Below, one piece after another: positions 20,954-27,276 of a stretch of 37,471 nt of DNA. The DNA is from Verrucomicrobiaceae bacterium. Lineage in GTDB: Bacteria; Verrucomicrobiota; Verrucomicrobiia; Verrucomicrobiales; DEV007. Location: the NCBI GenBank assembly GCA_009936795.1, contig JAACDM010000462.1, positions 1 through 37,471 of the forward strand, in the 5' to 3' direction. The position numbers and the translations under genes are program-made. The notes beneath the pieces are model-generated. The model was not told where the DNA came from. It saw only the letters and a list, made by a program, of their open reading frames with translations, and did no database searches. Each line of letters opens with the position of its first letter. The first letter of the stretch is position 1.

Positions 20954-21024
20954 GCGCTGTGTTCGCGTAAATCAGATAGGGCGTCAAGCTTGGAGACTTA
21001 ACCCCATGAAAGAGAGTGCAGCCC

Positions 21025-21061
21025 GACGGATCATGGACGAAACTCGAAACCATGATCCGTC
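21025..21061 (+). promoter_or_regulatory. 12-bp hairpin that buries the start codon
   Basis: GACGGATCATGG (21025-21036) and CCATGATCCGTC (21050-21061) are perfect 12-nt inverted repeats with a 13-nt loop. The ATG at 21052-21054, which begins the signal peptide of the next gene, lies within the right arm. In the mRNA this would hide the start codon and could limit translation unless it is opened. As DNA it could also be a repressor site. Confidence 0.55.
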
Positions 21062-22716
21062 CTCTCGCGATCGTTTTGGCCTCTATGATGGTGAGTCCTA
21101 TCTCCCTAATCGCCGACTCAGTGTGGGTTGAAGGAGAAACCGGTCAAACCACCAACCTGCGCAAGAACGGCTGGTATTCGTCCGTTCGAGCACAAGATTT
21201 GTCCGGAGCGGACTGGCTTGCCACTTATGGAAGTGATGTTCCCGTCGTCGCCACCTTTCCTCTTACGTTCACAAAAGCCGGGAACTACACGTTGTGGGTT
21301 CGAGCAAATCCTATCAACGCAACACTTCACGCTGCAATTGGTGCTTCAGAAAAATGGTTAGAAGTTCCTATTTCCTCAGATCGCCATGAAATAATTAACA
21401 TTGCCTCTGATGGCAAACCAGACCTGCGCTTCCTCGCATGGAGCAAAGTTGGGCCGATATCGCTAGTAGAAGGCGAAACAAGACTTCGCTTTCGAATGTC
21501 TTCCAAGAATCGCAACCATGGTGCCATCGATTGTTTCTGCCTCACCACCGACTCCGAGTGGAAACCAATTGGTATCTTAAAACCTAACGAATCTTCCAGT
21601 TGGCCCGCGCCAAAACTAACAGACACCAATCTCAGCCACTGGAGCGAATTCATTCGCCCGTCCGAAAAAGATCTCTCCTGGCGTGGCGTTCGTTGGCACC
21701 GCCATCTCGATGAAGCCGCGGCGGAAGCCAGCGACCTTGGGCGCCCCGTTCTCCTTTGGGCGATGAATGGGCATCCATGTGGTGAGACATGAAACAATGG
21801 CGTCAAAGGACGCGACGAGATCTGGTCAGATCTCAACCTACAAAAGCTTTCCAAGGAATTTGTCTGTGTCATCGAGGAAACCTTTCATCTCCACCCGCCA
21901 AACTGGCTCAAGGATCCTCCGAGACCAAAGAGCACTGCGCTCTATCGCACCTATGTGAAGAATGCACCCAAGCTCTGGCCTAAAAACACCAGCACCTATC
22001 AAGGGTTCTATCTTATGAGCCCCACCGGTGACTACCTAGGTGGAAACTTCGGCATTGTTCGTGAAGAAGAAGCGCGCAACTTGATGACAACAGCGTTAGA
22101 AAAATGGAAAGCGACGGGTGCGGCCATGCGCACCGTTTCAACGAACCCTCCCGCCCTCTATGGTGGGAATGAGCCCCAACCTGGTTCTCTGAAACTGCAG
22201 CTCGCCTACCGTGACCTCCCACGCGGTGACGTTGAAAGACCAACCACGGTCTACGTTCAGAATCCCTACAACCTCGGATGGTTTGATTTCTCAAAAGAGG
22301 AGGCGCGTGCGCTTCTCACAAAATCAGAAGAGCCGGTCACAATCCCGCACTCACTCTTTGCTAAGATGGCCACTCGAACACTAAAGGACGCTGTTCGGGG
22401 CCAGATGTCACGGTGGGATAGCTCGGCACTCCACTCTGGCTCCCTCACTACGCAGCGAATCTTGAAAGCCGTTTCGCGGAGCTCCTATCGCCTAAAAGGA
22501 TCCGTCAATCTGTCAGAGAATGAACGCCGCTATGAAGTTCAGTTGCTCGGCAAAGCCGTTTACGATGAACGCCTGCAGGCCTTTTTTGAATTTGAGCTCG
22601 TCGCCGTAGGCCAACGTAGTGGCAAAGGTGGTGCCAATGGCCGCGAAAACGATCTCGGACCTGCACCAATGGGAGTAGCTTTCAAGCTCTATCGATCACC
22701 CAAAACGAGCCGCTAA
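21052..22716 (+). CDS. Exported thioredoxin-like protein with in-frame UGA, candidate selenoprotein
   Basis: One frame of 555 codons is interrupted only by TGA at 21790-21792 (codon 247). Residues 1-22 are a signal peptide. Residues 23-175 are a beta-sandwich, carbohydrate-binding-like (VWVEGETGQ, GNYTLWVRANP, GAIDCFCL). Residues 205-330 look thioredoxin-like: RPVLLWAMNGHPCGET, then the UGA, then NNGVKGRDEIWSDL. The UGA falls at the N-cap of the helix where redox Cys sits in this fold, four residues after C243. The remaining 308 codons are clean, with TSTYQGFYLMSPTGDYLGG next and an unassigned C-terminal domain. A SECIS-like hairpin follows the UGA. If UGA is read as Sec this is a full oxidoreductase-like protein; if not, it is a gene with one nonsense mutation, giving two pieces (to 21792 and from about 21955). 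Confidence 0.6.
21790..21834 (+). promoter_or_regulatory. UGA codon with SECIS-like hairpin downstream
   Basis: After TGA (21790-21792), GAGATCT (21817-21823) pairs perfectly with AGATCTC (21828-21834) around the loop GGTC (21824-21827). There are 31 nt between the UGA and the loop. Bacterial SECIS rules as I know them ask for a 4-16 bp upper stem, a 3-14 nt loop with G in its first two positions, and 16-37 nt spacing; all are met. The E. coli fdhF SECIS also has GGUC at its tip. A smaller hairpin (GCGTC-AAAG-GACGC, 21800-21813) sits between. The hairpin overlaps codons for DEIWSDL, so coincidence from codon choice is possible. Confidence 0.5.
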
Positions 22717-23223
22717 CCAAGACTTCTTACATTGAGCATGTAGGTGAGATCTGCCGGATCAGACTCTAGCCTCTACCTTAGCGAAGCGATGAAGTTGTCC
22801 ACTGTGCACGTGGTTGGATACGCATGGTATTCCCACACCACATCCAAGAAGTGCTCGCGCGACACGGGCTCACCCCGATGCTCGGCGGAAAAGCGCTCGC
22901 ACCCGAGCAATGAGCTCTTTCATGCTGATGGGCTTCACCAAATAATCATCTGCGTCCGTCTCCAGTCCAGCCACGCGATCATCTACCATGCCTTTGGCTG
23001 TCAACATCAGAATGGAGGGCTTACAACTACGACGCCGCAACTTCAGACACACTCTGTAGCCATCCACCCCGGGCATCATCACGTCGAATAGAATCAGATT
23101 ACAAGCGCGCTCCAAGCCAAGTTGACCATCTTCAGCTGTGGCCACACGAGAACCATGCCCCCGCAAGGCCTCTGCTAGAGCCATCCTTATGGCCAGTTCG
23201 TCATCGATGATGAGTAGACTAGT
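22713..23223 (-). pseudogene. OmpR-family response regulator, decayed
   Basis: The minus strand begins TSLLIIDDELAIRMALAEAL (receiver domain start, acidic pair DD) immediately after an in-frame TAG, with no start codon left. The receiver continues with LILFDVMMPGVDGYRVC (phospho-acceptor Asp) and LVKPISMKELIARVRALFRR (conserved Lys) in one frame ending at 22870. The winged-helix remnant is in another frame: SREHFLDVVWEYHAYPTT, TVDNFIASLR, a TAG, then RLESDPADLTYMLNVRS. About 40 residues between receiver and recognition helix are missing. Start loss, deletion, frameshift and nonsense make this clearly non-functional as an OmpR regulator. Its end overlaps the stop of the candidate selenoprotein gene. 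Confidence 0.75.
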
Positions 23224-23403
23224 CTAGGTACCGGACTTGGGTCGTGGAAACCGCAAGGTGAAGGTACTGGCTTTACCAGAAGCGCTATCAAGCATGACCT
23301 TGCCGCCGTAAGCCATAAGTAGCATTGACGCCACAGGTGCTCGCAATTCATGCAACACGCGCGCCACAAACCGGCTCTCGATATCACTCGCGACGCAATG
23401 CAT
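23224..23403 (-). pseudogene. Histidine kinase remnant with large internal deletion
   Basis: The minus-strand frame reads DIESRFVARVLHELRAPVAS, the H-box of a HisKA domain with the phospho-accepting His, and within a few residues continues as GGKVMLDSASGKASTFTLRF, the G2 end of a HATPase domain, then stops at TAG 23224-23226. Nearly the whole ATPase domain (N, G1, F boxes) and the sensor part are gone. It lies directly before, and in the same frame as, the decayed response regulator, so an entire two-component system has degenerated here. Confidence 0.7.
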
Positions 23404-23689
23404 GCTGTGTCAACGCCAAGTGGTGCGTCTTTCAATCCACGACAGCAATTACGGTGATAACGCTTGTAGGGTTAAGAAGACGTTCAAAAATATTGTCATA
23501 ACACCACGACCACGCCGAATGCAGCGTTCGACCATCATTCTTCTCCCACTGCGATGTCGTAAATTCTATAACACCGCCCCACTCAAGTATGGGCAGCGGG
23601 AATGACCCACTGAAGACGACATCGATGATCTCCTTCCGGGTGGTGCGACAGATTCTCGCACGTTGCCAGTCGACACTCTAATTATTCGG
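23404..23689. other. 286-nt stretch, no assignable gene
   Basis: Between the kinase remnant and the ankyrin pseudogene. One minus-strand frame is open across about 23440-23670 (including IIDVVFSGSFPLPILEWGG) and could be another fragment, but I do not recognise it and see no start codon or ribosome binding site. Confidence 0.3.
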
Positions 23690-25139
23690 TCGTTGTGTCT
23701 TAGGAGTATTGGCCCAATCAGCAAGATGGCAGCCAAGCTGGGTGTCTCGCCAGAACCTGTCGCCAACAGTGTTTGATAGAGTATCTGCGGAAGGCATAGT
23801 GTGCTCGCTCCCTGCTTCTTCCATTCAAGATAACGCAATCGCATCGTATGGGCGCGCATAGGTCTACCCTGAACTTCGGCCCCAGGATCGGCCCCACGTG
23901 CGATCAGCTCCTGAGCCTCATCCCACTTCTTATCTTGCAGAGCATGGAACATGCGGTGTCTTCTCCTGATTATCACCGGCATCGATTTCTGCAACGGCCT
24001 CTATCAATGCTGGCACTAACTCGAAAGCCCCACCACGAACAGCTGCATGTAGAACAGTCCCGCAAAACCGGTCCGTCATGGTTAGATCTGTTCGCGAAAC
24101 AAGCTGGATGGAAAACTTGAAACGCTCACTGTCTGCAAGCGCTTAATGAAATGCTGAGGGATATTGTCCCACAACAGCACTTACATCCGCGCCTTGCAGT
24201 GAGAGCAAAGCAAAGATCTCGTTTTGATCGCGGTCGATAGCCCAGATTAGCGGTGTCGGTTCTCCTTCCGCAGCGACGAGATTCAGATTAGCATCCCGCT
24301 CATGCAACAGCTTCACAAAGGGATGTCCATCGCGAAGGACGGCAGGATCTAACATCATTATTCTCCTTTCGCGTTTCTTGCCGTCAAAGCGAAACAAATC
24401 GTTCTTGATCTCGTATATGCCATTTGGAGTAGAATTCCTGTTCAACAACAGCCTACCGACACTCTGGAACCCACTCACAATCGCCCCTCCTAGAGGAGAG
24501 CCGCACTCGATATCCACGCCTGACGTTATTAGATATTCACATGCTTTTAGGCGCCCATACTGCGCAGCGATCGAGAGAGCTGTTTCGTGATCGATATCCA
24601 CGCCATTCTTGAGAAGAAACTCTAGAACCCGCAAGTGTCCGTTCCTAGCAGCTCGATGGACGGGAGCGTAACCTTCTTCCACGGCAGAAATCAGAACTGG
24701 GCTGTCTGAGATGATCTTGCTCAGACGCTCACTCTCCCTCGCTTCTCCCTCGCTTCTTCATCAAGCAAATCGAGCGCCGTTTCTACTGAAGAAGCTTTCT
24801 CTCACAAGGCGAGTAGATTCTCTCGCCTGAGCCGGGCAAGCGAATCATGCGCGGGAAATTCGGCAAGCTACTGCAGATAAAGCTTCACTGCCTCCTTAGG
24901 GCGGTTCTGCTTACGCCGGACTTCGACGAGCCAGAAGAGCGCTGTAGCGGCGAACTGGCGATGGGAGTGGTAAGTCTCCAACAGCTTCTCATAGCCCGGG
25001 GCCGGTTGCGTCAGGCCTTGAGAGGCTTCCTCCTCAATTAGAGCCTCACGAAGAAGTTTCTCCAAGTCATCTCTGCGAGATTCTTGAGCAGAAAGGCTAA
25101 AGTAACAAGAACCGAAAGAATGAGGATCGATAGCTTCAT
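23690..25139 (-). pseudogene. Exported TPR/ankyrin-repeat protein gene, at least six lesions
   Basis: Read from ATG 25139: signal peptide MKLSILILSVLVTLA; a helical TPR-like part (GYEKLLETYHSHRQFAATAL, NRPKEAVKLYLQ); and then ankyrin repeats (APVHRAARNGHLRVLEFLLK, ALSIAAQYGRLKACEYL, TVLHAAVRGGAFELVPALI, FHALQDKKWDEAQELIARGA). The frame is broken by a missing base in the signal peptide (~25093), TAG 24868-24870, TGA 24802-24804, an 11-nt tandem duplication (24733-24743 / 24744-24754), TAA 24143-24145, and a frameshift near 23955. All lesions are consistent with one ancestral gene. Ankyrin proteins mediate protein binding; no function remains here. The left boundary is approximate. Confidence 0.8.
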
Positions 25140-25180: not shown

Positions 25181-26107
25181 ATGCGGCATATCGACATCTG
25201 TCAATCTTGTGCTAGTTCTGGTCCCTTGAAAAGATTCGTTCTCCCCGCTATCATCGTCACGCTCGTCCCCCTGCTCTTTGTCGAACCTCACGTCGCCCGT
25301 TGGCTTGAGTCGAACCGGACGACAAAGCGCCATGGTGAGATCATTCACGAGATCACATCGACATACTCTCACATCAGGGTACGCGAACGAGGCAATGTAC
25401 GTTGCCTGACATTCGTCGATCCAAATGGCCGCGAAGAACGCCAATCGGCAATCGACATAAAGAATCCTCATGCCATGCAGTTGGGCTACACCACCTCATT
25501 CTTTGCCTCGCTGCTATTTCGAGAACCTCAAGAGCGCGTGCTCATCGTTGGTCTGGGAGGAGGCGGCATGGTTCGCTTTCTGAACCATGCTTTTCCCGAA
25601 ACGATGGTCGAAGCAGTGGAGATTGACCGCGTGGTCGTCGGCGTCGCCAAGAACTACTTTGGTACTATGGAAGGCCCCATGACAAAAATTCATGTGGCGG
25701 ACGCCTTTGATTATCTCAAAGAACCTCACGGCCCCTTTGATGCTCTTTACATGGATGCCTTCCTCAAGCCATCAGTCGCTTCAGGTCTGGAGAATGTCAC
25801 CCAGCGACTGAAAACCCTAGAGTTCCTTCAGAGCCTGCGCAGGCAACTAAATCCTGGAGGCATCGTTGCATTTAATCTACACCAATACGCCTCCGCTACC
25901 CAGGACGATCTCGACGCCCTTAAGACGGCGTTCCCGCAGGTCTATCTCTTTGGCGTACCACGGACAGGTAATCTGATAGCCATCTGTACTATTGACCGCC
26001 AACGACTTACTACAGAGACTTTGGCAGAGCGAGCAACCAATCTAGAAACAAAGCTAGATGTCGACCTACCCTGGCAAAGCTTCGTCAATGAGCTACACCA
26101 CCTTTAA
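25181..26107 (+). CDS. Spermidine-synthase-like methyltransferase-fold protein, membrane-anchored
   Basis: A 308-residue protein with one hydrophobic segment near the N-terminus (FVLPAIIVTLVPLLFV) that may anchor it or act as a signal. The rest is a spermidine synthase-type Rossmann fold: RVLIVGLGGGGMVRFLNHAF (nucleotide motif), VEAVEIDRVVVGVAKNYFG, IHVADAFDYLK and FDALYMDAFLK. SpeE uses decarboxylated SAM and putrescine, but many relatives with membrane segments are not polyamine enzymes, and the substrate here is unknown. ATG 25181 is used; TTG 25226, just before the hydrophobic segment, is also possible. Downstream, after 173 nt, is the SenB-like gene on the same strand. Confidence 0.75.
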   Translation: MRHIDICQSCASSGPLKRFVLPAIIVTLVPLLFVEPHVARWLESNRTTKRHGEIIHEITSTYSHIRVRERGNVRCLTFVDPNGREERQSAIDIKNPHAMQLGYTTSFFASLLFREPQERVLIVGLGGGGMVRFLNHAFPETMVEAVEIDRVVVGVAKNYFGTMEGPMTKIHVADAFDYLKEPHGPFDALYMDAFLKPSVASGLENVTQRLKTLEFLQSLRRQLNPGGIVAFNLHQYASATQDDLDALKTAFPQVYLFGVPRTGNLIAICTIDRQRLTTETLAERATNLETKLDVDLPWQSFVNELHHL

Positions 26108-26280
26108 CGAAAGATTTCCGTTGATCCCGTCAATGCCCCCTTCTAGCATTCCACAGTGGCCTAGGGAGGTGATTGTAAAATTACTTGGGAGGGGGGGAAT
26201 ACTCCACTTAATGTGCGGTCGCCCCTCAGCTCACACTTTCCTGTCCCGGCATTGGGGCTACGAGGGTGTAAACCTACCTC

Positions 26281-27276
26281 ATGAATCGCCGAATTCTTCT
26301 AGCTTGCCCTTACCCCCTAGATTCTCCCCGCGGAAACAGTGTCTCCGCCAATCGCATCATTGGGATCCTCGAAGGGCTTGGCCGCACTGTCATTCCGATA
26401 TCTGGCCGAACTTCCTCTGAAGGCTCAGGAGATATTCTTATCGCGCTGCACGCAAGAAAGAGCGCTACGGCCATCGAAAGCTTTCACGCGAGGCATCCGC
26501 AACGCCCTGTCATCATCTTGCTCACAGGCTCCGATCTCTATGCCGATCTAGAAGGTCCTCCAGAGAACCGCACAACCGTGCAGCAAACCCTTGCGCTCGC
26601 AACCCGACTGGTCGTTGCGCAAGGCGCCTCGATCACAGACATCCCAGAAACCTTTCGTGACAAAGCCCAGGTAGTTCCCAAGTCACCGCTAACTAATGTT
26701 CCCACTCGCATGAAGAACCGGTCACCAGGGCTCCTGAACGTCGTCCTTTCCAGTCACCTGCGCCCAGCCAAAGCACCGCTTCTTGTGCTTGAATCGCTAG
26801 CTCTTTTACCGGAGAGCATCGCCGTTCAGGTTGACCACTATGGACATGCAGAGGATCCGGATCTAGGCCGCTATGCCCTCAATGCTTCTAAAGTCCCCAG
26901 AACTAAGTACTACTGGCATGGCAACAAGCCCCACAAAGAGATGTTAGCCACCTTTGCTCAAGCAGATCTCCTGTTAAACACATCTCGAGTCGAGGGCGGC
27001 GCCAATACCCTATGCGAGGCCATTCAAATGGGCCTACCCTGCCTTGCAACATCCATCCCACCCAACGCTGGCATGCTAGGTGAAGACTACCCTGGGCTCT
27101 TTCCAATGGATGATGCTCAGGCTCTAGCAATGTTGATAGAACGAAGCACTTCAGATGCCGATTTCCTCAACCAACTCACCTTAAAGGTTGAAATGAGGGC
27201 CCCTTTCTTTACAAGGCAGGCTGAAGCGGAAGCTTGGCAGAAAGTGATCGAGGAAGCATCGTCCCTGTCTACGTAG
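26281..27276 (+). CDS. senB: SenB-like glycosyltransferase (selenosugar synthase family)
   Basis: A 331-residue GT-B fold glycosyltransferase. Its blocks match the TIGR04348 family as I remember it: ALHARKS (55-61), HPQRPVIILLTGSDLY (72-87), SRVEGGANTLCEA (235-247), GMLGEDYPGLFP (264-275), and a tail ending EAWQKVIEEA. Members include SenB, which joins selenophosphate to a UDP-sugar in selenoneine synthesis. The usual partners SenA (selenoneine synthase) and SenC/SelD (selenophosphate synthetase) are not in the window, so the product could be a selenosugar or, if the member has diverged, another glycoside. It has its own 173-nt upstream gap. The family call is fairly sure; selenium as substrate is inferred. 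Confidence 0.7.
   Translation: MNRRILLACPYPLDSPRGNSVSANRIIGILEGLGRTVIPISGRTSSEGSGDILIALHARKSATAIESFHARHPQRPVIILLTGSDLYADLEGPPENRTTVQQTLALATRLVVAQGASITDIPETFRDKAQVVPKSPLTNVPTRMKNRSPGLLNVVLSSHLRPAKAPLLVLESLALLPESIAVQVDHYGHAEDPDLGRYALNASKVPRTKYYWHGNKPHKEMLATFAQADLLLNTSRVEGGANTLCEAIQMGLPCLATSIPPNAGMLGEDYPGLFPMDDAQALAMLIERSTSDADFLNQLTLKVEMRAPFFTRQAEAEAWQKVIEEASSLST

Follow-up and report, generated by a model that had tools for sequence, protein, structure and literature searches.

The window, that is, the whole stretch of 37,471 nucleotides that was analysed (contig JAACDM010000462.1 of a Verrucomicrobiaceae bacterium, assembly GCA_009936795.1), carries on its forward strand an intact open reading frame (26281-27276) that starts with ATG and codes for a SenB-like protein of 331 amino acids. 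Its neighbours encode a spermidine-synthase-like protein, BirA, TrpG, and TrpE. The first of these (25181-26107, forward strand) has 308 amino acids with an N-terminal hydrophobic segment and matches PRK04457 with 119.5 bits (cut-off 304), and the spacer that follows it contains a conserved non-coding element (26160-26232, forward strand). Further upstream, 3.6 kb away as described in the first-pass annotation, a thioredoxin-like frame (21016-22716, forward strand) is open across a single in-frame TGA (21790-21792), with a CGETU motif at this codon (...HPCGET[U]NNG...). With tRNA-Sec, SelA, and SelD also encoded by the organism, this frame probably specifies a genuine selenoprotein; no homologue of it was found among the loci examined. 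An apparent decayed response-regulator gene and ankyrin-repeat pieces (22744-23250 and 23566-24682, reverse strand) lie between both genes.

The SenB-like gene had been assigned to the SenB family on the basis of four sequence blocks, and all of them (ALHARKS, LTGSDLY, RVEGGANTLCEA, and GMLGEDYPG) are exact in the open reading frame. The top NCBIfam family is TIGR04348 (selenoneine biosynthesis selenosugar synthase SenB), with 268.6 bits, an E-value of 5.8e-80 and an alignment covering positions 1-309 of the 310 in the profile; this family comes first by 150 bits, though the score is below the curated equivalog cut-off of 300 bits. The runner-up is NF038229 (GPMC system GT4), with 118.5 bits, and five other members of the RI-type clade described below score between 228 and 278 bits with TIGR04348. 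The Pfam domain of the protein is Glycos_transf_1. A phmmer search of the PDB retrieved SenB chains only (8jjq, 8jjn, 8fbx, and 8k5u; E-values from 1e-45 to 4e-42). An AlphaFold (AF2) model, obtained with ten clade members as input, has a mean pLDDT of 92.7 and predicts the two-domain GT-B fold of the SenB crystal structures; when this model was compared with the PDB by Foldseek, the top 15 matches were all SenB chains (TM 0.81-0.91, 31-34% identity), and the first non-SenB structure, a GT4 enzyme, was far behind (E 4e-13). The family assignment is thus confirmed by both profile and structure searches, and no other GT4 or GT1 family gives a better match. The possibility of a pseudogene was discarded, because the open reading frame is intact in two species and the gene is under purifying selection (dN/dS 0.16). 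Given the score below the NCBIfam cut-off and the position of the protein in a separate SenA-free clade, the name SenB-like is used here instead of SenB.

The roles of the residues forming the SenB active site have been described for the enzyme of Variovorax paradoxus (PMC10891094). Eight of these residues (N20, H58, T83, D86, R155, K158, E231, and E239) are unchanged in the window protein, and three others show conservative replacements (T23 to S, R61 to K, and T85 to S), N20 and T23 having been equated by motif as the V. paradoxus sequence used started at residue 46. In the numbering of the window protein, the catalytic Lys158 corresponds to K164 and the sugar-site E231 to E238, and the selenophosphate pocket formed by N20, H58, R61, T83, T85, and R155 corresponds to N19, H57, K60, T82, S84, and R161, with two conservative changes; in fact, position 61 is a lysine in most SenB sequences of the order. 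The sugar site is more diverged, with Q131, V157, and H235 replaced by K134, A163, and N242, respectively, and further substitutions are found at L209 (to K) and T214 (to M). An asparagine at position 235 is also present in many SenBs encoded beside SenA, and the motif EGGAN (vs EGGAH), being common among such SenA-linked proteins, was rejected as a marker of the orphan clade. Lys158, Arg155, and the two glutamates are in part general features of GT4 enzymes; more specific support comes from the N-terminal pocket. Most of this pocket, together with K158, is missing from two generic GT4 paralogues encoded in the same genome.

The genomic background is that of a selenium-using organism. The assembly (6.6 Mb, 739 contigs, 95% complete) encodes SelA (489 bits), SelU (333 bits), tRNA-Sec (68.5 bits), and, on a contig other than that of the SenB-like gene, an oxidoreductase-SelD fusion that scores 266.8 bits and contains GCAAK as its Cys-x-x-Lys motif. 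The fusion scores 479 against the NCBIfam model 'oxidoreductase/SelD-related fusion' (short name fusion_not_SelD; cut-off 700); the genome has no other strong SelD match, and with SelA and SelU also encoded, SelD activity is its most likely function. Its gene overlaps a gene for a TIGR04283 arsenosugar-biosynthesis glycosyltransferase (232 bits, over the cut-off; L068 6982-10037, G000:C453). Judging from these genes, the bacterium clearly uses selenium, a possibility raised in the first-pass annotation, whose suggestion of an orphan enzyme also holds: neither senA nor senC (selD) lies beside the SenB-like gene in the window, and SenA was not found in the whole assembly, where the best match to NF041186 reaches 86 bits (cut-off 420) and is restricted to the FGE domain. 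Overall, this is a selenium user whose SenB-like enzyme is divergent and unaccompanied by SenA. The overall interpretation given in that annotation is supported, and the use of selenophosphate by this protein may be proposed from its sequence.

The link between this type of gene and selenium extends across the order. In a survey of 142 genomes, TIGR04348 was found in 33 (one weak partial match was left out), selD in 41, and SenA in 11; selD was present in all 33 SenB genomes and in 8 of the other 109. The RI-type genomes all carry selD (11/11; p 4e-7, ancestry uncorrected), and none of the 101 selD-negative genomes has an RI-type gene. The same pattern is seen in genus g2 of the same family, whose listed selD-negative members lack SenB. 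In a sample of 388 genomes of the phylum, a SenB-like gene was found in 3, all among the 33 genomes with selD. Shared ancestry and the Sec/SeU trait in its entirety are confounders of this association; the SenB genomes also encode other consumers of selenophosphate (SelA and SelU), and it is thus with the entire selenium trait that the gene is linked.

A scan of genome contigs with the single sequence gave no relatives, whereas an alignment-based scan did retrieve them. In a tree of 101 SenB-like sequences, including one suspect long row (L129), the window protein groups within a clade of 19 RI-type sequences, all from Verrucomicrobiota. A 100/98 branch separates this clade from 81 others, among which are all 27 sequences with SenA nearby. 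The RI clade has the motif GNxx[ST][AT]xR[IMF] where the other side has GNxxTAxxW, the tryptophan following GNxxTA being replaced by isoleucine. Comparison of gene neighbourhoods in relatives, which had been suggested as a check, revealed no SenA adjoining any of the 19 RI-type genes (Fisher p 0.0014, relatedness uncorrected). At the genome level, SenA is absent in 9 of the 11 RI-type genomes of the order survey; the exceptions are G102, where it lies beside a canonical SenB, and G135, where it is on another contig. The closest relative of the window protein is the second SenB-like gene product of G102 (74% identity), followed by that of G019 (48%). These genomes belong to a genus with four members: the present genome and G019 carry the RI type only, G102 has both types, and G509 has only the canonical one, adjoined by SenA. 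Among the three members with an RI-type gene, SenA thus occurs only in G102.

The neighbours of the RI-type genes are less uniform. Wherever this type occurs in the genus (three genomes), the spermidine-synthase-like gene lies 150-175 bp upstream on the same strand, and in G019 this pair is kept while the other neighbours differ. A single partner gene common to all RI-type loci was nevertheless rejected, since the neighbours vary (spermidine-synthase-like, KamA-like, HI0933 flavoprotein, UDPGP, or APH). In eight other clade members, from Akkermansiaceae and relatives (seven Verrucomicrobiota MAGs and G135; L088 5365-9148, L131, L136, L160, L161, L164, L176, and L182), the RI-type gene is flanked by cysS and by a gene for an APH-type phosphotransferase; these loci could be selenosugar kinase operons. 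Another arrangement is that of G023 (L089 5614-7811), where the RI-type gene and a lysine-2,3-aminomutase-like radical SAM gene share a 4-bp overlap. As for the canonical genes of Verrucomicrobiota, several are divergent from selD-selA and from genes for a phosphonate-type ABC transporter, with or without SenA (L077, L078, L079, L090, L093, and L097); this transporter may serve for uptake of a selenium compound. At loci L112-L186 (Thiobacillus, Hydrogenophilales, and others), many canonical SenB genes of Thiobacillus and Planctomycetes lie amid housekeeping genes, with no SenA in the flanks examined (up to 6 kb).

The spacer between the spermidine-synthase-like and SenB-like genes contains a stretch of about 73 nt (26160-26232), GGGAGGGGGGAAYACTCC followed by GGTCGCCCCTCAG, that is conserved in three genomes of the genus and is a candidate structured leader RNA. 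The putative helices are P1 (GAGG-UGA/UCGCC-CUC), P2, and P3 (GGAG/CUCC, with the invariant loop GGGGGAAYA). In this three-helix structure, which was drawn from and scored on the same three sequences, 91.5% of the cells are paired, vs 42-49% when it is slid by 1-3 columns, and compensatory (two-sided) changes occur in 4 of the 20 pairs. Folding of the single sequences is weak (z -0.8, -1.5, and -2.6). As the structure derives from only three sequences, the leader RNA is a candidate only. A known riboswitch was discarded because there is no Rfam match, even at E 10. When about 1.9 Mb of sequence, including the present organism's loci for selD, selA, selU, and tRNA-Sec, was searched with a covariance model, the element was retrieved at the three senB-like loci and nowhere else; no copy was seen ahead of the remaining RI-type genes or of selA, selD, or selU. 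Nor was it seen in about 475 kb of other sequence, covering part of the present genome (G000) and of G019, which argues against an abundant dispersed repeat. The element may regulate the SenB-like gene.

Taken together, these data make it probable that the gene encodes a selenosugar synthase that depends on selenophosphate and makes a product with a fate other than selenoneine. Selenophosphate, the acceptor, would come from the SelD fusion encoded on another contig, a UDP-sugar would serve as the donor, and the enzyme would form a Se-C glycosidic bond, with Lys164 (Lys158 of V. paradoxus SenB) helping to release phosphate and yield a 1-seleno-sugar. To our knowledge, the only pathway with a characterised SenB-type enzyme is that of selenoneine, where SenA is the next enzyme. 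As no SenA was found, the selenosugar would not be converted to selenoneine here, and it might either be the final compound, a low-molecular-weight selenol, or donate selenium to another enzyme. Alternatively, the RI clade might have kept the SenB fold and switched its acceptor to thiophosphate, phosphate, or an organic compound, becoming a GT4 enzyme unrelated to selenium. The separate clade, the diverged sugar-site residues, and the absence of a SenA/SelD operon would fit such a switch, and so would the UDP-glucose pyrophosphorylase gene that comes after the RI-type gene in G012, a neighbour that suits any UDP-sugar enzyme; on the other hand, the conserved N-terminal selenophosphate pocket and the strict confinement of RI-type genes to selD-positive genomes in the order sample make it unlikely.

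An ordinary selenoneine pathway, with the SenB-like enzyme feeding in trans a SenA whose gene is missing from the assembly, is still less probable. The fragmented and incomplete assembly leaves room for it, and in G135 SenA (417 bits) and the sole SenB, of the RI type, are on different contigs, so that both may cooperate there; however, SenA is also not found in G019, a member of the same genus with an RI-type gene and a 95% complete assembly of about 70 contigs, and in G102 and G509 SenA adjoins the canonical SenB. Selenoneine and ovoselenol are two dedicated selenometabolites recently characterised in bacteria (PMC13188914), and the selenosugar might then feed a pathway of the ovoselenol type through an OvsA-like enzyme. 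This seems very improbable, since no EgtB/OvoA-like protein of full length turned up in the genome, where the best match to the SenA model is FGE-only and the rest are partial. Returning to a selenosugar synthase outside selenoneine formation, a broader scheme can be drawn in which a Verrucomicrobiota-specific enzyme opens a selenometabolite pathway (neither selenoneine nor ovoselenol), under genus-level control by a new leader RNA, possibly one that senses a selenium metabolite, and with the spermidine-synthase-like protein as partner; as a whole, this scheme is speculative and rather doubtful. The existence of a SenB-like clade in selenium-using, mostly SenA-less genomes suggests other uses of selenosugars, and the RI-type genes are concrete handles for finding the selenosugar-derived product.

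Comparison with known systems places the window protein closest to the SenBs. The GPMC system family 4 glycosyltransferase (NF038229) is the second-best profile and aligns over the full length, but with 118 bits against 269 for SenB and far under its own cut-off of 400. The GT4 enzymes BshA and MshA share with the SenB-like protein the GT-B fold and, as predicted for it, the use of UDP-sugar donors, and they act in low-molecular-weight thiol pathways, although identity is only 13-16%, TM to the query is 0.49-0.79, and the Foldseek E-value is about 1e-12 (1e-26 for SenB). The SenBs of V. paradoxus and relatives (TIGR04348; 8JJN, 8JJQ, 8FBX, and 8K5U) resemble it in the GT-B fold (31-34% identity in full-length structural alignment), the catalytic Lys, the selenophosphate pocket, and EX7E. 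Unlike them, it has PYPLxSxxGNSVSAxRI in place of GNxxTAxRW and K, A, and N at positions 131, 157, and 235, its gene has neither senA nor senC beside it, and its score is below the NCBIfam cut-off. Finally, the canonical SenBs of Verrucomicrobiota (e.g., that of G102 contig 472, beside SenA) come from the same order and share the same selenium trait, G102 having both kinds; they show about 32% identity to the window protein, often have genes adjoining selD-selA or SenA, and lie on the opposite side of the 100/98 branch.
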